NCBI GenBank assembly: GCA_017464805.1
Contig: JAFTYE010000010.1
Span: 139,047-191,557 of the forward strand
DNA length: 52,511 bases
Direction: 5' to 3'
Source: Clostridia bacterium
GTDB lineage: Bacteria > Bacillota > Clostridia > Oscillospirales > CAG-272
Position 1 is the first letter of the stretch. Every line of letters begins with the position of its first letter. The notes under the pieces are model-generated. The model made no database searches. It was not told the DNA's origin and worked only from the letters and a program-made list of their open reading frames with translations. Made by a program: the position numbers and the translations under genes. Below, piece after piece: positions 828 to 40,607 of the stretch.

Positions 828-2486
828 ATGAACGAAACGGCAAAAAGCGCGTCCGGCAAGAATAAGTCCTTATTCTTTTCGGGCGTGCTGTTTCTTAGCG
901 GAGCAAATGTTCTGGTCAAAATTATCGGGTTGCTTTTCAAGATCCCGATGTCCTATTTCCTCGGAGACGAAGGAATGGGCTACTTCAATGCCGCCTACCA
1001 GATCTATACGTGGCTCTATATGCTCTCTACCGCGGGGCTTCCTGTTGCCGTTTCGATCCTGATCTCCGAATGTCGCGCCGATGGCAACGCTCCCCGCGTG
1101 CGCCACATCTACCGCATTGCGTGGTACACCTTTCTTTCTCTTGGTATCCTCGGCACGGGCATTATGCTCTTCGGCGCAGGGCCGCTTGCCGCTGCCATCG
1201 GCTCACCCGATGCCCGCTATTGCATGATGGCGATCTCACCCACGCTCTTTTTTATCTGTCTCGCTGGTGCGCTTCGCGGCTATTTCCAGGGCTTTTTGCA
1301 GATGGCACCACCTGCCGTGTCGCAGGTGCTGGAGGCACTTGGCAAGCTGCTAGTCGGTGTGCTCTTTGCCTCGCTGGCCATTCGACGCGGCCTCGATCTT
1401 CCGATCGTGGCCGCCGCCGCGATTTCGGGTCTTGCGGTCGGGGAAGCGGCAGGCTTCCTCTATCTGCTCCTCTCCCGCCGCCGCTATGAGAAAAAACATC
1501 GTTTTTTCATGCTCACCGAGGGCGAGAGCAAGAGTACCGTTCATTCCGTCTCACCCTCGCGTGACATCCTTTCCCGTCTTGTAAGGATTGCACTCCCCAT
1601 CACGGCAAGCGCATCGGTCATGAGCCTGACGGGCCTGCTTGATCTGGTGATCGTCCAGCGTCGCTTGCAAAGCATCGGCTTTTCGGTGACACAGGCAACC
1701 GCCTTCTATGGCAACTATACCACCCTCGTCGTACCGATGTTTAATCTGCCGCCCGCCCTCATCTATCCCATCACCACAGCTGTGGTCCCCCTTCTTTCCG
1801 CCACCATTGCCGGGGGGAACAGGGATGGGGTCACGCGTACCGTGCAGTCGGTCTTGCGGGTTGCGTCGCTTATCTCACTCCCTTGTGCCTTGGGGCTCTC
1901 GCTTTTTGCCCGTCCCATTCTGCGTCTGTTCTTTCCCGCCGACATGGCGGAAAGTGCCGCGCCCCTGCTCGCGATACTCGCTCTCGCCGTTTTCTTCCTC
2001 TCTCTGCTCACCGTCACCAATGCGGTCTTGCAGGCAAACGGCATGGCAGGTAAGCCCATGATTGCCATGCTCGTCGGCGGTGCCGTCAAGCTCGTGTGCA
2101 GCTATCTTTTGATCGGCATTCCCACCGTCGGAACGGCAGGCGTACCGATCGGCACACTGCTCTGTTATTTTGCCGCCCTTTGCGTGAATTTGTATTTCAT
2201 CATCCATCACCTCGGCGTTTACCCGTCCGTGTCGCGTATTTTGCTTCGCCCCGCCTTCGCAGCCTTCCTTGCCGTCGGGGCGGCTCGGGGACTTTACTCG
2301 CTCCTTGGCGGAGATGCCGCCGCACGCCCGACCGTCCTCACCCCCATTGCGGTGGCCGCCCTCATCTACGTGGCGGCGGTTTTCCTCTTCCGCGCCGTGA
2401 CGGAGGAGGATCTTGCGCTCTTGCCCTTTTGGGGAAAAATCAAGCACCGCCTGCATAAAAACCGAAAAAGCACCGAAAACTCATAA
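828..2486 (+). CDS. SpoVB/YabM-family polysaccharide flippase (MOP superfamily)
   Basis: A 552-residue polytopic membrane protein of the MATE/PST/MurJ superfamily. The N-terminus has the typical SpoVB-like start (F-F-S-G-V-L-F-L, then G-A-N-V-L-V-K-I-I-G-L) and about 14 hydrophobic segments follow, which is the family's usual number. Such proteins flip lipid-linked sugars or peptidoglycan precursors across the membrane. ATG at 828 is chosen because a GGGGG ribosome site ends 5 bases before it; GTG at 822 in the same frame overlaps that site. The gene sits just before mazG, as yabM precedes yabN in Bacillus, so the YabM/SpoVB subgroup fits. The exact lipid substrate cannot be read from the sequence. 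Confidence 0.85.
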   Translation: MNETAKSASGKNKSLFFSGVLFLSGANVLVKIIGLLFKIPMSYFLGDEGMGYFNAAYQIYTWLYMLSTAGLPVAVSILISECRADGNAPRVRHIYRIAWYTFLSLGILGTGIMLFGAGPLAAAIGSPDARYCMMAISPTLFFICLAGALRGYFQGFLQMAPPAVSQVLEALGKLLVGVLFASLAIRRGLDLPIVAAAAISGLAVGEAAGFLYLLLSRRRYEKKHRFFMLTEGESKSTVHSVSPSRDILSRLVRIALPITASASVMSLTGLLDLVIVQRRLQSIGFSVTQATAFYGNYTTLVVPMFNLPPALIYPITTAVVPLLSATIAGGNRDGVTRTVQSVLRVASLISLPCALGLSLFARPILRLFFPADMAESAAPLLAILALAVFFLSLLTVTNAVLQANGMAGKPMIAMLVGGAVKLVCSYLLIGIPTVGTAGVPIGTLLCYFAALCVNLYFIIHHLGVYPSVSRILLRPAFAAFLAVGAARGLYSLLGGDAAARPTVLTPIAVAALIYVAAVFLFRAVTEEDLALLPFWGKIKHRLHKNRKSTENS

Positions 2487-2498
2487 AGGAGAAGACCC

Positions 2499-3293
2499 GT
2501 GAAACCGACCTCACTCGAATTTCTGTCCAAGGAAGTCTACACCTTCGATGACCTGCTTGCCATCGTGCGCCTGCTTCGTTCCCCCGAAGGATGCCCCTGG
2601 GATCGTGCCCAGACCCACGCCTCCGTGCGAAAGAATCTGCTCGAGGAGGCCTACGAGGTTGCGGAGGGCATCGACCGCGACGATGCGGCCATTCTGCGTG
2701 AAGAATTGGGTGACCACCTCTTTCAGGCCGTCTTTCATGCCGTGATCGAGGAGGAGCGTGGTCGCTTCACCACCACCGATGTACTGACCGATATCTGTCG
2801 AAAAATGATCTTCCGCCATCCCCATATCTTCGCGGGCGAAAGCGCGAAAGGAAGGGAAGAGGCACTCGACGCATGGGAGGCGGCCAAGCGTGCAGAGAAG
2901 CACCAAACAAGTGCATCCGAGGCGATGCGCGCCCTGCCTGCTACACTGCCCGCCCTGATGTATGCCGCCAAAATGTCCGGTAAGGCGGCTCGTGTCGGCT
3001 TCACTTACGACACCCCGGGCGAGGCCGCCGAAAAGGTGACCGAGGAATGGGACGAGCTTGCCGCCGCCAAGACGAAAGAGGAGCAGGCCGAGGAGTACGG
3101 AGATCTGCTTTTTGCCCTTGTAAACTACGGGCGCATGCTTGGCATCGATGCCGAGGAAGCACTGTCCTTTGCAGCGAAGAAGTTCCTTGCTCGCTTTGAA
3201 AAAGCGGAAGGCTCCCTTGCTGCCGAAAAGGGGGATTTGGCACAATGCACAAAAAAAGAATGGATTTCTGCATGGGACGGGACAAAAGTATAG
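2499..3293 (+). CDS. mazG: MazG nucleoside triphosphate pyrophosphohydrolase
   Basis: 264 residues. The signature G-C-P-W-D-R-A-Q-T-H is at 31-40, followed by the metal-binding E49-E50-x-x-E53 and E69-x-x-D72 set of the all-alpha NTP-PPase fold. A second, more diverged MazG half with an E-E-W-D-E-L and E-E-Y-G-D-L pattern fills about 170-225. MazG hydrolyses (d)NTPs, including damaged ones, to NMP and pyrophosphate. Unlike Bacillus YabN it lacks an N-terminal tetrapyrrole-methylase domain. The start is GTG, with AAAGGAG about 8 bases upstream, 12 bp after the flippase stop. Confidence 0.92.
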   Translation: MKPTSLEFLSKEVYTFDDLLAIVRLLRSPEGCPWDRAQTHASVRKNLLEEAYEVAEGIDRDDAAILREELGDHLFQAVFHAVIEEERGRFTTTDVLTDICRKMIFRHPHIFAGESAKGREEALDAWEAAKRAEKHQTSASEAMRALPATLPALMYAAKMSGKAARVGFTYDTPGEAAEKVTEEWDELAAAKTKEEQAEEYGDLLFALVNYGRMLGIDAEEALSFAAKKFLARFEKAEGSLAAEKGDLAQCTKKEWISAWDGTKV

Positions 3294-3331
3294 TGAAAAT
3301 TTACAAAAATTACAAAAAACGTCAAAAACTA

Positions 3332-3360
3332 TTGATAAATTTTAGTGAATATGCTATAAT
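3332..3360 (+). promoter_or_regulatory. Sigma-A promoter of hup-rqcP
   Basis: TTGATA at 3332-3337 and a perfect TATAAT at 3355-3360 are separated by 17 bp, with TGC just before the -10 (extended -10). It lies in an AT-rich gap after mazG and 64 bp before hup. No terminator is visible between mazG and this promoter. Confidence 0.8.
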
Positions 3361-3423
3361 ATAAGATGAAAGACAGCGAGTTGCGCTGCGTTTCTATATC
3401 TTAAAAGAAAGGAATGAATTCCC

Positions 3424-3699
3424 ATGAACAAGACCGAACTGATCGAACTCGTTGCAAAAGAAGCGGAAATCAGCAAAAAGAACGCGGAGGTTGCCGTAAA
3501 CGCTGTGTTTGAGGCAATCGCCAAGACCTTGGAAAAGAACGAGGAGGTACAGGTTTTCGGCTTCGGTAAGTTTGCCGTAAACGAAAGAGCCGCTCGTGAG
3601 GGTCGTAACCCCGCAACCGGTGAAAAGATCAAGATCGATGCAGCCAAGTATCCTGCATTCTCGGCCAGCAAGACCTTGAAGGATCGCGTAAACAAGTAA
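3424..3699 (+). CDS. hup: HU-family histone-like DNA-binding protein
   Basis: 91 residues, the standard HU length. It starts M-N-K-T-E-L-I and carries the HU arm signature G-F-G-K-F around 48-52 followed by R-x-G-R-N-P-A-T-G-E, the beta-ribbon with the DNA-intercalating Pro. HU dimers bend and compact the nucleoid. A strong ribosome site (AGAAAGGA) precedes ATG at 3424. The stop is only 3 bp before rqcP, so the two are almost certainly one transcript, an arrangement common in Clostridia. Confidence 0.96.
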   Translation: MNKTELIELVAKEAEISKKNAEVAVNAVFEAIAKTLEKNEEVQVFGFGKFAVNERAAREGRNPATGEKIKIDAAKYPAFSASKTLKDRVNK

Positions 3700-3702
3700 G
3701 AT

Positions 3703-3945
3703 ATGCGTCTCGATAAGTACCTCAAGGTCGCGCGGATCATCAAGCGGCGTACCGTAGCCAACGAAGCGTGCGATGCCTCGCACGTGCAGGTCAACGGAAA
3801 GCCCGCCAAGGCATCCTACGACGTCAAGCCCGGTGATGTCATTGAGGTGGGTTTTGGCAGTCGCACGATGCGTGTGCGTGTTCTGGACATTAAGGACAGC
3901 ACAAAGAAGGCTGATGCGCAGGACATGTACGAGGTCATCCCTTGA
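3703..3945 (+). CDS. rqcP: RqcP (YabO) S4-domain RNA-binding protein
   Basis: 80 residues made of one S4 RNA-binding domain: M-R-L-D-K-Y-L-K at the N-terminus, a basic I-K-R-R-T helix, and V-N-G-K-P-A-K followed by V-K-P-G-D. RqcP/Hsp15-like proteins bind the 50S subunit carrying peptidyl-tRNA and work with RqcH to add poly-Ala tails to stalled chains. The gene follows hup by 3 bp and precedes yabP, matching the order yabO-yabP-yabQ of Bacillus. Its stop (3943-3945) is 7 bases before the sigma-E -35 element and 14 bases before the base of the hairpin in front of yabP. Confidence 0.92.
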   Translation: MRLDKYLKVARIIKRRTVANEACDASHVQVNGKPAKASYDVKPGDVIEVGFGSRTMRVRVLDIKDSTKKADAQDMYEVIP

Positions 3946-3951
3946 AACCAT

Positions 3952-3980
3952 TCATAGAATACAGCGCCTTTGCATACAAT
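3952..3980 (+). promoter_or_regulatory. Candidate sigma-E sporulation promoter of yabP-yabQ
   Basis: TCATAGA (3952-3958) and CATACAAT (3973-3980) are spaced by 14 bp. The -10 is an exact match to the known sigma-E -10 consensus, and the -35 matches the first five of seven positions of TCATATT. In Bacillus yabP and yabQ belong to the sigma-E regulon. The predicted start point is about 3986-3988, inside the loop or the first bases of the right arm of the hairpin described next. Confidence 0.72.
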
Positions 3981-4009
3981 GTAGCAACATTGTATCGGAG
4001 GCGCTGTAT
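3959..4009 (+). promoter_or_regulatory. Hairpin that covers the yabP ribosome-binding site
   Basis: Two perfect 9-bp helices are stacked: 3961-3969 pairs with 3999-4007, and 3974-3982 pairs with 3987-3995, closed by the tetraloop AGCA (3983-3986). A 4/3 internal loop separates them, and two A-U pairs extend the base to 3959/4009. The right arm contains the ribosome site CGGAGG (3996-4001), and the base touches the start codon (4008-4010). No T-run follows, so it is not a terminator. The left arm is the same DNA as the sigma-E promoter. Confidence 0.8.
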
Positions 4010-4289
4010 GAATTCTATGCCCGAAAATCAAAAAAATCAAACCCTCATTCTCCGCGACCGCAAGCTCCTTGAGACAGACGGTGTGTCGGACGTGGTGGGC
4101 TTTGACGAGGCCACCGTCCTTTTGCGGACCGTCCGTGGGGCGATGACCGTGGAAGGCGAAGGCCTGCATATCACCCGCCTGGATCTCGAAAAGGGGGTCG
4201 TGTCGGTGGAAGGGAACATATCCGCCGTTTTATACACCGATGAGAGCAAGGGCGAGCGTCGCGGATTTTTCGCACGAATGGTCAAATGA
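4008..4289 (+). CDS. yabP: Sporulation protein YabP
   Basis: 93 residues from ATG 4008, chosen because CGGAGG lies 6 bases before it; an upstream in-frame ATG at 3942 overlaps rqcP and lacks a ribosome site. The body matches the YabP/YqfC fold: the L-I-L-R-D-R-K-L-L-E start, then V-V-G-F-D, and a repeated short beta pattern with G-E-G-L-H-I and V-S-V-E-G-N-I. In Bacillus YabP is made in the mother cell and is needed for efficient sporulation; its biochemistry is unknown. The stop overlaps the yabQ start (ATGA), so the two are translationally coupled. Confidence 0.9.
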   Translation: MNSMPENQKNQTLILRDRKLLETDGVSDVVGFDEATVLLRTVRGAMTVEGEGLHITRLDLEKGVVSVEGNISAVLYTDESKGERRGFFARMVK

Positions 4290-4894
4290 CGGGGCTTGAG
4301 GTTTCGGCCGCAGTACAGCTGCGTGCGCTCGTCCTTGCTGTCGGGCTCGGCATCCTGCTTGGCCTGCTTTTTGATGCCTTCTTTATTCTTCGCGTGCTTC
4401 TCGGTGCCCATACGGGAAAACGGGGAAGGACGCGCCTTGCTGCGCGCCGCTACCCTCTCCTGCCTCCCGATTTCGGCGAACGAGAGCAGGGAAGGGTCGG
4501 ACGGGGTTTGAGCTTTGTCCTCACCCTGATCCTTGACTTTTTCTATGCTACGATGGGCGGTATTCTGTTCCTTCTCTTTGTTTACTCACAAAGTGAGGGC
4601 GTCTTTCGCTTGTACTACCTTATCGCGGCGGCTTTCGGCTTTTTCTGTTATTATCAAACGCTGGGGCGACTGGTTGGTTCTCTTACTGCCGCGATCGTGT
4701 TTCTCCTTCACCTATTCCTTGCTTACATACTTTTGTTCATTCGTGTACCCTTCTTGTGGCTTTTGCGCGTGGCGGGGCGATCTATCCTTTCTCTTGCCTT
4801 ACTGATCTACCGCCCTCTCTACGGTGCCTGTCTCATGGCAAAACGAAAAATCTGCGCCGGGCGTGCATTTTTGCCCCCTCGGCTTTCCATCTGA
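4286..4894 (+). CDS. yabQ: Spore cortex biosynthesis protein YabQ
   Basis: 202 residues with four to five hydrophobic helices: one at the N-terminus (L-A-V-G-L-G-I-L-L-G-L), then clusters around 70-95, 105-125 and 130-165. The L-L-F-D-x-F-F-x-L-R pattern near residue 30 and the F-R-x-Y-Y segment are typical of YabQ. The protein is a mother-cell membrane protein needed for cortex formation. It overlaps yabP by 4 bp. Bacillus has divIC next; here a terminator follows at once, so divIC is not in this operon. Confidence 0.85.
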   Translation: MTGLEVSAAVQLRALVLAVGLGILLGLLFDAFFILRVLLGAHTGKRGRTRLAARRYPLLPPDFGEREQGRVGRGLSFVLTLILDFFYATMGGILFLLFVYSQSEGVFRLYYLIAAAFGFFCYYQTLGRLVGSLTAAIVFLLHLFLAYILLFIRVPFLWLLRVAGRSILSLALLIYRPLYGACLMAKRKICAGRAFLPPRLSI

Positions 4895-4918
4895 AAAAGC
4901 GGCCGCGGCCGCTTTTTT
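4895..4918 (+). terminator. Intrinsic terminator after yabQ
   Basis: A GC-rich palindrome centred on GCGGCCGCGGCCGC is flanked by an A-run on the left and TTTTTT on the right, starting directly after the yabQ stop. Confidence 0.88.
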
Positions 4919-4948
4919 AATTTGTTGTCGAAAAATGAGAAAAACCTC

Positions 4949-4977
4949 TTGCAATACGAGCGCAACTGTGGTACAAT
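4949..4977 (+). promoter_or_regulatory. Promoter of the SAM riboswitch-metK unit
   Basis: TTGCAA (4949-4954), 17 bp, TACAAT (4972-4977), with TGG just before the -10. Transcription would begin about 4984, just ahead of the riboswitch. Confidence 0.8.
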
Positions 4978-4995
4978 AAAGAAAATTGCATACAA

Positions 4996-5077
4996 CTTAT
5001 CAAGAGTGGCGGAGGGACTGGCCCTGTGAAGCCCGGCAACCTGTCATGCGACAAGGTGCTAATTCCCGATAGATGAG
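4996..5077 (+). promoter_or_regulatory. SAM-I (S-box) riboswitch aptamer
   Basis: Shows the conserved S-box blocks in order: CTTATCAAGAG, GGAGGGACTGGCCC, GAAGCCCGGCAACC and AAGGTGCTAATTCC. P1 forms between 4996-5001 and GATGAG at 5072-5077. It senses S-adenosylmethionine and controls metK, which makes that molecule. Confidence 0.95.
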
Positions 5078-5087
5078 AGAGTGGTGT

Positions 5088-5117
5088 TCGGGAGGGGTTT
5101 GCTCTTCCGATTTTTTT
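5088..5117 (+). terminator. Riboswitch-controlled terminator before metK
   Basis: TCGGGAG (5088-5094) pairs with CTTCCGA (5104-5110) and is followed by seven T. An alternative pairing of CCCGA (5065-5069) with TCGGG (5088-5092) would break the terminator, which is the expected OFF-when-SAM-is-bound logic. Confidence 0.82.
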
Positions 5118-5137
5118 GTTGTAAGAAAGAGGTTATT

Positions 5138-6322
5138 ATGAACGAAAGAAAGCTGTTTACGTCCGAATCGGTCACCGAAGGACATCCCGATAAGATCTGC
5201 GATAAGATCTCGGACGCGATCCTTGATGAAATGCTCCGCGCCGATCCTATGTCCCGCGTAGCCTGCGAGACCTTTGCTACCACGGGCATCATCATGGTCA
5301 TGGGCGAGATCACGACCTCGGCGCATGTGGATATTCCCGCCGTTGTACGCCGCACGGTCGAAGAGATCGGCTACGATCGTGCAAAATACGGCTTTGATTG
5401 CCATACCTGCGCCGTACTGAACTCCATTCATGAGCAGTCGCCCGATATCGCCATGGGCGTAGATCGTTGTGCCGAGGCAAAAAGCGGTGACATGCAGGAC
5501 GAACTGGATACGGGCGCGGGTGACCAGGGTCTGATGTTCGGCTATGCTTGCAACGAGACCCCAGAGCTGATGCCCCTGCCCATTTCGCTTTCTCACAAGT
5601 TGGCCATGCGTCTGACCGAGGTAAGAAAACAGGGAATTCTTCCTTATCTCCGTCCCGACGGCAAAACGCAGGTCACTGTGGAATACGAGGGAGACCGTCC
5701 CGTCCGTGTGGACACGGTGGTCGTTTCCTCCCAGCACAGCGAGGATGTTACCCTCGAAACCATCCGCGCCGACGTGATCCGCGAGGTCATCGAGAAAATC
5801 ATTCCCGCCGATCTGCTTGATGGTAACACCAAAATTTACGTCAATCCCACCGGTCGTTTTGTCATTGGTGGCCCGATGGGCGACACGGGTCTGACGGGTA
5901 GAAAGATCATCGTCGATACTTACGGCGGCTATGCCCGCCATGGCGGCGGTGCCTTCTCGGGTAAGGACCCCACCAAGGTGGATCGCTCCGCCTGCTACGC
6001 CGCTCGTTACATCGCCAAAAATGTCGTTGCCGCAGGCCTGGCCGACCGTTGCGAGGTTCAGCTTGCCTATGCCATTGGCGTGGCACGCCCTGTTTCCGTG
6101 CGCGTGGATACCTTTGGCACCGCCCGCGTTCCCGAGGCAAGGATCGCCAAGGAGGTGGACAAGCTGGTCGACCTTCGCCCCGCCGCGATCATCAACCGTT
6201 TTGGTCTGCGCCGTCCCATTTACAGCCCCCTCGCCGCCTACGGTCACATGGGTCGTGAGGATCTTTCCGTTGGCTGGGAACAGATCGACCTCGTTCCCGC
6301 GCTCAAAGCCGCACTTCTTTGA
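5138..6322 (+). CDS. metK: S-adenosylmethionine synthetase
   Basis: 394 residues, the normal MetK length. It makes SAM from methionine and ATP. Visible signatures are [13 protein letters not shown] at the N-terminus, G-A-G-D-Q-G near 126-131, and the phosphate-binding [16 protein letters not shown] loop. The start ATG at 5138 has AAAGAGG upstream; an in-frame codon at 5081 lies inside the riboswitch expression platform and is rejected. Regulation by the upstream SAM-I riboswitch is direct product feedback. Confidence 0.97.
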
Positions 6323-6369
6323 ACCCAAAGCATCCCTTCTCGCATAGAATGCTAAAAAGGGAGGGGATT

Positions 6370-6660
6370 ATGGGCTTTTTGGAAATTATGGAAATTGTCG
6401 TTTGCATCTTTGCCGTCTACGGTGTGTATGCGTTGGTGTGCCGCCTGCTCGGCCACGGATGCTACAAGGGCGACCTTTCGGTCGCCATTCACAAAACCGA
6501 AGGAGAAACAGGTGACGCCATTCACCGTGCCATCATCCTCACCGAGGCACAGAACGGCAAAATGCGTTCCCCCGTCATCCTGCTTGAAAAGACACCAAGT
6601 GCCGAGGAAGAGAAGGCTCTACGCGAATGCGGCTGCCGTTTATACAGCCGCATTTCTTGA
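6370..6660 (+). CDS. Small single-pass membrane protein, unknown function
   Basis: 96 residues from ATG 6370, which has a strong GGGAGGGG ribosome site; an in-frame ATG at 6319 overlaps the end of metK. The first 30 residues form one hydrophobic helix (I-M-E-I-V-V-C-I-F-A-V-Y-G-V-Y-A-L). A soluble tail follows with E-A-Q-N-G-K-M-R-S-P-V-I-L-L-E-K and a C-terminal Cys-rich end (E-C-G-C-R-L-Y). I do not recognise the family. It lies between metK and recD2, with about 47 and 30 bp gaps. Confidence 0.65.
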   Translation: MGFLEIMEIVVCIFAVYGVYALVCRLLGHGCYKGDLSVAIHKTEGETGDAIHRAIILTEAQNGKMRSPVILLEKTPSAEEEKALRECGCRLYSRIS

Positions 6661-6690
6661 CCTAAAAATTCAAAGAAATGGAGTTAGACG

Positions 6691-8928
6691 ATGGCAGAGC
6701 CAATCAGAGAATGCGTCAGCGGCGTTGTGGAAACCGTCGTCTACCGCAACGAGCGCAATGACTACGCCGTCATCGAATTAACGGGTGACGACGACAGCAT
6801 GATCACCGCCACGGGCATTCTGCCCTACGTTGCGGAGGGGGAGGAGGTCATCCTCTACGGCCGCTGGGTCACCCATGCCGCCTACGGCAGACAGTTCTCG
6901 GTGGAAACCTTTGAAAAGCGTCTGCCCTCGGACGTCCATGCCATTTTGCGTTACCTCGCCTCGGGCGCGGTGCGCGGTGTCGGTCCCTCCACCGCCACCA
7001 AGATCGTTTCCCGCTTCGGGGAGGACAGCTTCGACGTGATCGAAAACCACCCCGAATGGCTTTCGGATATCCCGGGCATCTCGGTCAAAAAGGCCGCCGC
7101 CATCTCGGAATCCTTCCGTGAGCAAACAGGCGTGCGCGCGGTCATGATGTTCTGCCGCGATTTTGTCGGCGCGGCGACCGCCACGCGTGTCTATAAACGC
7201 TTCGGCGCGGGCGCGGTCGGCAAGATCCGCGAAAATCCCTACTGTTTGTGCGACGGCACGCTCGGCATCGGCTTTGAAAAGGCGGACGAGATCGCCGCCT
7301 CTCTCGGTATGGATAAAAATGCCGCCTGCCGCCTCGAAAGCGGCCTGCGCTATGTTCTGCAATATAATGCCATGGCAAACGGCCATACCTGTTTACCGGC
7401 GGACAAGCTGACGGCAAGCACCACCGCCCTCCTCGGGGTGGAGCAGGATACCGTCCTTGCCGCCCTCGATGCGGCACTCAACTCGGGCAAGCTTGTTTCC
7501 CACCCCGCAGAAGGATTCGAGGAAACACCTCTCATCTTCTTGGAGGAAGCCGCATCTGCCGAGGATTATGTGGCGAGAAAACTCCTGCTTCTCGACCGTT
7601 ATTGTGCCACCTACTCTCATGAGGACGTGGAGCGCATGATTGGGATGGTCGAGGCGGAGCAGGGGATCCGATATGCGGAGCAGCAACGCCACGCCATCCA
7701 CGCCGCCATGACGGGCGGTGTCCTCATCGTCACGGGTGGCCCCGGTACGGGCAAGACAACCGTCGTTATGGCGCTGTTGCGGATCTTTGAGCACCTTGGC
7801 TGTCAGGTGGCCCTCGCCGCTCCCACGGGCCGCGCCGCCAAGCGCATGTCCGAGGCGGGGGGACACGAGGCGCGTACCATCCACCGCATGCTGGAAATGG
7901 AGCGCACGGCAGAGGAAGGCGAGCTTCGCTTCAACCGCAATGAAAGGAATCCCCTCGACGAAAATGTCATCATCATTGACGAGGCCTCTATGCTGGATCT
8001 GCCGCTTGCGGCAGGCCTTTTGCGCGCGGTGCAGAACGGCACGCGCCTGATTCTGATCGGGGATGTCGATCAGCTCCCCTCAGTCGGCATGGGCAACGTC
8101 TTGGGCGATTTGCTCGACTGCGGCGTGTTCTCCACCGTCTGCCTGTCCGAGATCTTCCGTCAATCCGAGCGCAGTCTGATCGTCACCAACGCACACCGTA
8201 TCAATCGCGGCGAAATGCCTCGCCTTGACGAGACCGATGGTGATTTCTTCTTCGTGGAGCGAAACGTGGAGGAGCAGATCGCCCTCACGGTCGCCGCTCT
8301 GATCGAAACGCGCCTGCCCCGCGTCTACGGGGAAGAGATGCGCGACAAGATCCAGGTCATCACCCCCTCGCGTAAGGGGCGCGCCGGTACAGAGGTGCTC
8401 AACCGTCTTCTCCAGGAGCGCATCAACCCCGCCGAAATCGGCAAAGACGAGATCCGCTTCCGAGATGCCGCCTTCCGCATAGGCGATCGTGTGATGCAGA
8501 TCCGCAACAACTACGAGATCGAGTGGGAAAAAAACGGCAAGCAGGGAAACGGTATCTTCAACGGGGACATCGGCGTGATCGAGCGCATCGAAAAGCAAAG
8601 CGAAACGCTCTGGATCCGTTACGACGATCGCCTCGCTACCTACGATTTCTCGCTCCTTGAGGAGCTGGAGCATGCATATGCCATCACCGTGCACAAAAGC
8701 CAGGGCAGCGAATATCCCGTGGTGATCCTTCCTATGTACGCCTGTGCACCCCCACTCCTTACCCGTAACCTTATCTATACTGCCGTCACGCGTGCACGCG
8801 AAATGGTCGTTCTGGTTGGCAGGAAGGATATTGTCGCCCGCATGGTGGAAAATAACCGTCACGATATGCGCTATACCTGCCTGCATCACCGCATTTTGAA
8901 AGCGGCCAAAGACTATGAAAATATCTGA
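6691..8928 (+). CDS. recD2: RecD2-type ATP-dependent DNA helicase
   Basis: 745 residues. The N-terminus has the RecD2-specific OB-like region and helix-hairpin-helix repeats (V-R-G-V-G-P-S-T-A near 92-100; L-S-D-I-P-G-I-S near 125). Superfamily 1B helicase motifs follow: Walker A G349-x4-G354-K355-T356-T357, Walker B with D430-E431, G-D-V-D-Q-L-P-S-V-G after it, and the UvrD-like C-terminal T-V-H668-K-S-Q-G-S-E. RecD2 is a 5'-3' helicase that works without RecBC and is linked to replication and repair. It overlaps comF by 14 bp. Confidence 0.94.
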   Translation: MAEPIRECVSGVVETVVYRNERNDYAVIELTGDDDSMITATGILPYVAEGEEVILYGRWVTHAAYGRQFSVETFEKRLPSDVHAILRYLASGAVRGVGPSTATKIVSRFGEDSFDVIENHPEWLSDIPGISVKKAAAISESFREQTGVRAVMMFCRDFVGAATATRVYKRFGAGAVGKIRENPYCLCDGTLGIGFEKADEIAASLGMDKNAACRLESGLRYVLQYNAMANGHTCLPADKLTASTTALLGVEQDTVLAALDAALNSGKLVSHPAEGFEETPLIFLEEAASAEDYVARKLLLLDRYCATYSHEDVERMIGMVEAEQGIRYAEQQRHAIHAAMTGGVLIVTGGPGTGKTTVVMALLRIFEHLGCQVALAAPTGRAAKRMSEAGGHEARTIHRMLEMERTAEEGELRFNRNERNPLDENVIIIDEASMLDLPLAAGLLRAVQNGTRLILIGDVDQLPSVGMGNVLGDLLDCGVFSTVCLSEIFRQSERSLIVTNAHRINRGEMPRLDETDGDFFFVERNVEEQIALTVAALIETRLPRVYGEEMRDKIQVITPSRKGRAGTEVLNRLLQERINPAEIGKDEIRFRDAAFRIGDRVMQIRNNYEIEWEKNGKQGNGIFNGDIGVIERIEKQSETLWIRYDDRLATYDFSLLEELEHAYAITVHKSQGSEYPVVILPMYACAPPLLTRNLIYTAVTRAREMVVLVGRKDIVARMVENNRHDMRYTCLHHRILKAAKDYENI

Positions 8929-9646
8929 TCTGCCGAATATTATATCTCGTCTTTTCTTCGTCCCGAAATGCGCGGTCTGCAACACGCGCCTGCCGCTGTC
9001 TCATCCGGACGGTGTGCTTTGTCCGATCTGCCGTCTGCGCTACGAAAACGAAAAAACCGTGACTTGTCCCGTCTGTGCTTCGGTGCTGGGGGAATGTTTG
9101 TGCCTGCCGCCCGATATGCCGAAAAGCGCGGCCCATAAAATGGTCAAGCTGGTTTCTTATCATCCGGGCGCGGAGGATGCCTCGGCCGACATGATCTTTG
9201 CCCTCAAGCATCATGCCACAACCGATCTTCTTCGCTTTTTCGCGGACGAGCTTGCCCTTCGCCTTTTGCCTGTCGTGAACGGAAAAGAGCACTTTGTCGT
9301 CACGTATCCGCCGCGTGGCAGAAAAGCACTTCGCCACGACGGCTACGACCATGCCGCCTCGCTTGCCTCGGCGCTCGGTAGGAGACTGCATCTACCTGCC
9401 CTGTCACTCTTCCGCCGCCGTTATGCGGGCCAGCAGAAAAAACTCTCTCGTACTGCTCGTCTTGCCGCGGCGCGGGCTGGTTACACGCTTCGGAGAAATG
9501 CCAGCGTGAAAGGGAAGCGCGTGATCCTTGTGGACGATATCTGCACCACGGGTGCCACGCTTACGGCACTCGCCAAGCATCTGCGCGCCTCAGGTGCAAG
9601 GGAGATTGTCTTCGCCGTGATCGCGGTTACGTCCGCTCGTGCATAG
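8915..9646 (+). CDS. comF: ComF-family phosphoribosyltransferase-like protein
   Basis: 243 residues. The N-terminus holds a zinc-finger-like set, C-x2-C near 19-22, C-x2-C near 36-39 and C-x2-C near 52-55, followed by a type I phosphoribosyltransferase domain. The PRPP-binding loop is V203-I-L-V-D-D-I-C-T-T-G-A-T. ComFC proteins take part in DNA uptake for transformation in Bacillus and related bacteria, but many non-competent Clostridia keep the gene. The start lies inside the last codons of recD2, so the two are coupled. Confidence 0.9.
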   Translation: MKISDLPNIISRLFFVPKCAVCNTRLPLSHPDGVLCPICRLRYENEKTVTCPVCASVLGECLCLPPDMPKSAAHKMVKLVSYHPGAEDASADMIFALKHHATTDLLRFFADELALRLLPVVNGKEHFVVTYPPRGRKALRHDGYDHAASLASALGRRLHLPALSLFRRRYAGQQKKLSRTARLAAARAGYTLRRNASVKGKRVILVDDICTTGATLTALAKHLRASGAREIVFAVIAVTSARA

Positions 9647-40577: not shown

Positions 40578-40607
40578 ATGAATATGAAAAAACGCGTATA
40601 ATTATGA
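40578..40607 (-). promoter_or_regulatory. Candidate sigma-E promoter of spoIVA
   Basis: On the minus strand: TCATAAT, 14 bp, CATATTCAT. The -35 is one base off the TCATATT consensus; the -10 shares CATA. The spacing equals that of the yabP promoter. spoIVA is a known sigma-E gene. Confidence 0.65.

Follow-up and report, generated by a model that had tools for sequence, protein, structure and literature searches.

How might a sporulation gene be kept silent until sporulation when it lies directly behind genes read from a vegetative-type promoter? The question is raised by yabP in the window, the whole 52,511-nt stretch of DNA analysed here (C17:139047-191557 of the source genome G000, which comprises 1.76 Mb in 17 contigs), where the gene is preceded by hup and, across a gap of 62 nt, by an S4-domain gene that, by synteny, we take to be rqcP (Table 1). 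YabP scores above the cut-off of PF07873 (56.7 versus 27 bits) and slightly below that of TIGR02892 (4.8e-21; 74.6 versus 75.4 bits), and the yabQ-like gene that follows reaches 27.3 bits against TIGR02893 (below the cut-off of 32) and 27.5 bits against PF09578 (cut-off 27). The preliminary description of this DNA had named the hup promoter as the source of a long RNA entering yabP, and a consensus match to such a promoter is indeed present. Besides the strong terminator behind yabQ, a scan of the plus strand returned weak terminators at 3374-3388 (hup leader) and at 4555-4570 and 4853-4867 (within yabQ) and a strong one at 5088-5110, and none at the hairpin that precedes yabP. Because no terminator was found between hup and yabP, hup RNA should reach yabP unless it is stopped. 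Further downstream on the same strand, a SAM riboswitch (4994-5079; Rfam RF00162, 72.3 bits) lies upstream of metK.

The gap before yabP is occupied by a promoter and a hairpin that overlap. Positions 3959-4009 are predicted to fold into a near-continuous 23-bp stem, with a minimum free energy of -39.2 kcal/mol against -14.85 +/- 2.54 for shuffled sequences (z -9.6; 0 of 200 shuffles as good). Two 9-bp helices with an AGCA loop had been described; their positions, the 9-bp inner helix and the 4-nt loop stand, whereas the outer helix proves to have 11 bp. Since 3970-3972 pair with 3996-3998 in the fold and a single C is bulged at 3973, the whole of CGGAGG is paired, and the stem takes in the AT of the start codon, as expected from the earlier placement of this Shine-Dalgarno (SD) sequence in the right arm with the start codon at its base. 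The sigma-E promoter proposed for the left side of the stem, TCATAGA-14-CATACAAT, is likewise found exactly as described, at 3952-3980: its -35 box contains ATA, its -10 box conforms to CATANNNT, both in line with the sigma-E consensus, and the spacing agrees with that given in a figure legend for B. subtilis. The 28-base core of this promoter (3953-3980) occurs once in the window, even with three mismatches allowed. From the spacing, the sigma-E transcript is expected to start at about 3986-3989, near the loop.

Table 1. Features of the hup-yabQ region and of the metK-downstream junction (window positions)
Feature	Position	Strand	Basis or remark
hup promoter, vegetative-type: TTGATA, 17 nt, TATAAT; TG precedes second box	3332..3360	+	consensus match only
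hup (HU-family DNA-binding protein)	3424..3699	+	family profile match
rqcP/yabO-like S4-domain gene, directly 3' of hup	3703..3945	+	S4 domain
sigma-E type -35 element TCATAGA	3952..3958	+	exact sequence match
Outer left arm, within promoter spacer	3959..3969	+	pairs with 3999-4009
sigma-E type -10 element CATACAAT, in left side of stem, its C bulged	3973..3980	+	
Inner left arm	3974..3982	+	pairs with 3987-3995
Loop AGCA	3983..3986	+	
Inner right arm	3987..3995	+	
SD CGGAGG, paired in long RNA (predicted)	3996..4001	+	
Outer right arm, reaching AT of start codon	3999..4009	+	
yabP (sporulation protein YabP), start ATG 4008	4008..4289	+	TIGR02892 and PF07873
yabQ-like gene, overlaps yabP 3' end	4286..4894	+	TIGR02893, PF09578
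Strong terminator behind yabQ	4892..4919	+	terminator scan
Candidate for a second lock, weaker, downstream of metK; arms 6332-6341/6359-6368, CATAGAAT at 6343-6350	6332..6368	+	

RNA that begins at 3987 has a structure within chance (z +1.1), and the predicted unpaired fraction of the SD rises from 0.00 in the long RNA to 0.39 in the short one, so the short form would be only moderately open; within that limit the predictions support the claim that the long RNA hides the ribosome site and the short RNA exposes it. An additional helix, 3953-3963/4009-4019 (91% complementary), may compete with the base of the stem or extend it. The suggestion that ribosomes ending at rqcP might weaken that base carries little weight, the stop codon lying at 3943-3945 and the main stem beginning at 3959. 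The window hairpin has no T-run of the kind that marks an intrinsic terminator, and an Rfam search of positions 2000-9000 at gathering scores returned the metK SAM riboswitch and no match at the hairpin. A repeat-element origin was considered and rejected: the element is single copy in its own genome (no second copy at E 0.001) and the arm sequences differ between genera.

We consider the yabP junction to be, probably, a read-through lock built on a sporulation promoter. RNA initiated at the hup promoter would cross rqcP into yabP carrying both arms, and would then fold into the long hairpin predicted here, closing the yabP start region; in the many relatives whose hairpin ends in a T-run, transcription should instead be terminated, or both effects may apply. 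RNA initiated by sigma-E would start near the loop without the left arm, form no hairpin, and be both transcribed and translated. YabP would thus be made only when sigma-E is active, despite a strong vegetative promoter upstream and almost no spare DNA. At the level of sequence this reading draws on the promoter motif, the hairpin, SD pairing, conservation, left-right asymmetry and recurrence at other genes; the dependence on sigma-E in the source organism is deduced from the consensus and from B. subtilis.

Conservation was assessed in the gaps upstream of yabP in the 47 of 69 same-genus genomes in which YabP was found, the source genome included. When the strongest hairpin of each gap was picked blind to the motif, CATANNNT fell in the left arm only in 25 gaps, in both arms in 12 and in neither in 10, four of these ten having yielded no simple hairpin, at least partly through a start finder that chose an ATATG inside the right arm; mirrored in the right arm only, it was found in 0 of 47. 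The same choice of a right-arm ATATG was made in several genus loci, a bias against the lock: in the SD-accessibility test, the SD came before the start site at 7 of the 47. By the criterion of a paired CATA in the left arm, the -10 box is paired there at 40 of 48 loci (39 of the 47 in the genus, plus L034), leaving eight genus loci without the arrangement. These 40 loci were chosen for CATA on the left; on the opposite side, the complement of the facing bases likewise spells CATA at 21 of them, and G-U pairs or gaps and unpaired bases occur at the others. Such a difference between the arms would be expected if the promoter holds the left side in place and its RNA partner on the right can vary more freely. 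An ATA-type -35 box stands at the 14-nt spacing in 40 of the 45 genus loci with a picked -10 box. At two of the eight genus loci that lack the left-arm arrangement, L008 and L041, a different register places the promoter over a terminator, with the -35 box (AATATA) in the left arm and the -10 box CATATATT in a right arm followed by a T-run; there, the start is expected after the right-arm -10 box.

Across the genus gaps the outer hairpin sequence turns over, and promoter and pairing are kept. In a plain MAFFT alignment of 34 of the 39 hairpins (L007, L012, L029, L031 and L037 were omitted as irregular), changes on both sides occurred at the four outer pairs in 22, 8, 8 and 1 of the sequences. 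The preliminary description had proposed looking in relatives for paired base changes that preserve stem and promoter, and such changes are what the both-side substitutions, the left-arm motif and the complementarity of the spacer (below) reveal. A further element is superimposed on the promoter: at 23 loci the -10 box begins exactly 14 or 15 nt past the rqcP stop codon, and all 23 of these stops are TAA (the 22 other loci have TGA in 11, TAA in 8 and TAG in 3), so that the -35 box incorporates the upstream stop codon.

The hairpins of the genus differ in how they could act on read-through RNA. Among the 39 classified hairpins with a left-arm -10 box, 32 have a T-run, in 23 cases with the SD outside the hairpin (L043 is counted here, although by eye GGAGG lies within its arm) and in 9 with the SD in the right arm; four, namely the window and the three relatives whose YabP has the highest identity to its own (L004, L005 and L006), lack a T-run and carry the SD in the arm, and both features are missing from three. 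The T-run gives most of the genus hairpins the form of an intrinsic terminator rather than of an SD lock alone, a feature invisible to the preliminary description, as was the recurrence of the arrangement at other genes. The element thus seems to shift between terminator, SD lock and both, with the -10 box mostly staying in the left arm.

To our knowledge, the 14-nt spacer is not read by sigma-E. The promoter was picked regardless of pairing, its spacer was shuffled 1000 times, and the complementarity of spacer plus -10 box to the stretch between start site and start codon was scored. Of the 47 genus loci, 43 had a picked -10 box, and 30 of these reached significance at p<=0.05; the corresponding figures were 29 of 63 (from 70 loci) for the rest of the family, 23 of 67 (from 70) for the rest of the order and 4 of 29 (from 30) for the class at large; most loci outside the genus were thus non-significant. 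Mean duplex energies for genus, family, order and class were -21.4, -15.5, -15.2 and -10.1, versus -12.1, -11.0, -11.8 and -8.8 for the shuffles. The baseline, 237 genes with the same geometry at fixed distance, gave 16 at p<=0.05 and 3 at p<=0.01; it was drawn from the source genome alone (open frames of at least 120 codons with an SD, sporulation genes left in), whose base composition is not that of the order and class genomes. The family set includes L034, which is the same contig as L178, and L164 was dropped for want of an assigned start. Scored by SD accessibility, the test is weaker (15 of 36 genus, 13 of 62 family, 11 of 64 order and 2 of 26 class loci at p<=0.05), and a promoter-free count finds the yabP SD sealed by upstream sequence at 15 of 47 genus, 23 of 68 family, 18 of 70 order and 6 of 30 class loci. 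Outside the genus, the association between the yabP lock and a close upstream rqcP is non-significant (p 0.16). The idea of a lock in all Clostridia is unsupported, given the 4 of 29 loci of the wider class; inspection by eye finds the lock geometry, complete with SD, T-run and ATG, at two class loci (L072 and L075).

Is the arrangement peculiar to yabP, or does it recur at other sporulation-type genes of these gut bacteria? In B. subtilis, yabPQ and cwlD are listed among the sigma-E genes of the cortex group in the extract of PMC517825 used here. We fetched 30 loci each for cwlD, TIGR04086 and spoIVA (44 and 61 of the 69 genomes match TIGR04086 and spoIVA, respectively), with -10 pickers that differ slightly among the yabP, TIGR04086, cwlD-like and spoIVA tests, the cwlD-like test also accepting AATA boxes. 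The name cwlD is tentative, 0 of 69 genomes passing the TIGR02883 cut-off (best 207 bits versus 221.55). At the cwlD-like genes the spacer test was significant in 21 of 30 loci (29 tested); typically the spacer ends in CCTC, the right arm contains GGAGG, and a T-run and the ATG follow. The picker found no -10 box at L379, and by eye a different box is apparent at L386, L393, L401 and L402. The source genome's own cwlD-like gene (L392) is non-significant by the CATA rule (p 0.42); post hoc inspection by eye shows a UUCG terminator there whose left arm contains CGTATACT.

The junction between yajC and TIGR04086/DUF3792 has its promoter in a hairpin in the source genome (G000:C17, near 120700; L278 744-700, minus strand), at L315, L322 and at others. 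Within the genus, 10 of 30 such junctions are significant, that of the source genome included, 26 having a testable CATA box, and several of the non-significant ones show by eye a similar hairpin with GAATA-type boxes. At L320, L323, L324, L332, L337, L339 and L342 the -10 box, judged by eye, frequently resembles GAATA instead of CATA, and the -35 box reads TTCTA in some cases; these boxes possibly mark another sporulation sigma factor or a variant box. The arrangement suggests that in these bacteria the sigma-E regulon includes TIGR04086/DUF3792, a functionally uncharacterised family. The right arm is formed by the SD itself at many loci of both the cwlD-like and the TIGR04086 sets, in which the SD is sealed at 15 of 30 and 11 of 30 loci, respectively.

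The spoIVA loci were meant as a control without lock. Of 28 tested (30 loci), 8 were significant at p<=0.05 and 1 at p<=0.01, and the SD was sealed at 6 of 29 versus 12 of 237 own-genome genes, above background and thus not a clean negative. The window's own spoIVA, on the minus strand near 40586, has the promoter TCATAAT-14-CATATTCA and no lock (p 0.59). The lock is therefore unsupported as a universal feature of sigma-E promoters, with spoIVA as the counter-example; since spoIVA is rarely locked, the lock looks like a property of certain junctions rather than of sigma-E promoters as such.

Two-box and pattern scans delimit the recurrence further. A strict two-box pattern gave 21 matches in the source genome and 21 in the reversed control; three reached p<=0.01: yabP, yajC-TIGR04086 and L306, at which no gene is evident. 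Over 390 kb of that genome (the window plus 19 stretches), a strict promoter rule returned two sites, yabP and yajC-TIGR04086, both locked, and looser searches stayed near chance: 6 of 75 sites at p<=0.05 with a looser two-box rule, and 8 of 111 for CATANNNT boxes before a start codon without a -35 box. The pattern CCTCCGNATAN{6,30}CGGAGG (CCTCCG-NATA-CGGAGG) matched 40 times in 32 of 69 genomes, two of these sites being palindromes counted on both strands, versus 7 in the reversed control and none in the source genome. Nine of the 30 pattern loci read precede what is apparently one amino-acid carrier gene (the one tested, L345, scores 248.5 bits against TIGR00835, below the cut-off of 272.65); this AGCS-type-like gene, possibly a sporulation gene, follows CCTCCGCATANNNT..CGGAGG, a T-rich stretch and ATG at L344, L345, L348, L350, L354, L356, L360, L362 and L369. 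Other pattern loci are two cwlD-like genes (one tested), one D-Ala-D-Ala carboxypeptidase gene, one site behind metK, several TIGR04086 genes and one SPOCS-like gene, named by eye without a family. The list is impure, L357, L363 and L364 being THF riboswitches before an ECF-transporter-like gene.

A second candidate lies in the window itself, behind metK, where arms in the gap 6320-6370 would hide the SD of a small gene without family that starts at 6370. Its fold is weak (z -0.9), and the spacer shuffle gives p 0.024 in the source genome and no significance at the other 7 of 8 loci. In one relative (G018, L351) a stronger hairpin behind metK has CCACCCTCCG facing CGGAGGTGG.

The most serious competing explanation sees in the hairpin no more than a terminator for the hup-rqcP operon, with the shortness of the gap as the only reason for its overlap with the promoter. 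The gap is indeed short, and T-runs accompany most of the genus hairpins with a left-arm -10 box; yet in the window and its three closest relatives the T-run is missing and the SD lies in the right arm, the scan finds no terminator in the window copy, and the SD forms the right arm at many cwlD-like and TIGR04086 loci. The blind-picked hairpins also speak against a terminator that merely shares space with a promoter, since 37 of 47 carry the motif on the left and none carries it mirrored on the right alone, the right-arm -10 boxes of L008 and L041 notwithstanding. We hold this explanation to be unlikely. A role in protecting the 3' end of the hup-rqcP mRNA, or in its processing, with no bearing on yabP, would suit a hairpin that stands close behind rqcP in the large majority of the 47 folded genus gaps, and would leave unexplained why a left-arm -10 box and a right-arm SD recur at several unrelated gene pairs; it appears very improbable.

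Equally improbable, in our estimation, is that the palindrome serves as a DNA operator through which SpoIIID or another sporulation regulator represses yabP. A long palindrome does cover the promoter, and SpoIIID represses yabPQ and cwlD in B. subtilis according to the extract of PMC517825; outside the promoter boxes, however, complementarity is conserved and the arm sequence is not, and the G-U pairs towards the right arm suit an RNA rather than a DNA site. Least credible of all is control by a ligand-sensing riboswitch or an RNA thermometer: although the hairpin sequesters the SD, the searched 7-kb region around it gave no Rfam match at the site, no conserved aptamer-like sequence is apparent, and the -10 element in the arm would go unexplained. 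A read-through lock on the sporulation promoter thus continues to be the reading we prefer for the yabP junction.

The closest precedent is phage T4. For its lysozyme gene e, and also for soc, 49 and I-TevI, the available extract of PMC3014915 describes early transcripts with an inhibitory structure whose 5' strand holds late promoters, an arrangement reported there as kept in related T4-type phages; the parallel drawn in the preliminary description is apt, gene e showing that such logic works (PMC3014915). As at gene e, the long RNA before yabP is predicted to bury the SD and start in a hairpin, the DNA encoding the 5' strand of that hairpin contains the later promoter, the short RNA is predicted to be open, and pairing is kept while sequence changes. 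Unlike gene e, the genes concerned here are several unrelated chromosomal sporulation genes with a sigma-E type promoter, over a genus and family breadth, and the element is often converted to an intrinsic terminator, a feature absent from the gene e description in that extract (PMC3014915). The element resembles an intrinsic terminator between operons in the hairpin and T-run of 32 of 39 genus copies, and differs from one in that the next gene's -10 box lies in its left arm, so that RNA should start within the hairpin, and in that the window copy has no T-run.

IS10/Tn10 is reportedly protected from external promoters, a finding attributed to Davis et al. in 1985. IS elements carry 5' elements or terminators that prevent outside-driven expression, as stated in the extract of PMC2965389. 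The likeness is that read-through RNA from outside would be closed or terminated and RNA from the element's own promoter spared. Unlike these cases, no mobile element is involved (the genes are hup-rqcP-yabP-yabQ, with no transposase gene guarded at an element end), and promoter, terminator or lock, SD and often the upstream stop codon are superimposed. In the open-access literature we found no lock or promoter-in-terminator described at yabP, cwlD or other sporulation genes, in keeping with the preliminary description, which knew of no such case for yabP. Compared with known locks, this one would stand apart in where it occurs, in how widely it is spread, in its repeated appearance at genes unrelated to one another, and in the interchange of SD lock and terminator at a single site.

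More tentatively, we lean towards a lineage-wide anti-leak code, in which sigma-E promoters behind vegetative genes carry an anti-SD (CCTCC-like) in an otherwise free spacer: RNA entering from upstream would seal or terminate itself, sigma-E RNA, starting past the spacer, would be exempt, lock and terminator would be two forms between which one element can evolve, and the -35 box would take in the upstream stop (TAA) at many loci of the genus. If this is true, compact genomes could place developmental genes right behind housekeeping genes, free of leak, with no regulator protein and almost no DNA, and a cellular developmental programme would be seen to use a trick known from phages and transposons. 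A single site would be shown to change between translational lock and terminator, and the design would be ready-made for leak-proof gene stacking. The anti-SD in the promoter spacer would, moreover, amount to a sequence rule for sporulation promoters in uncultured Clostridia.
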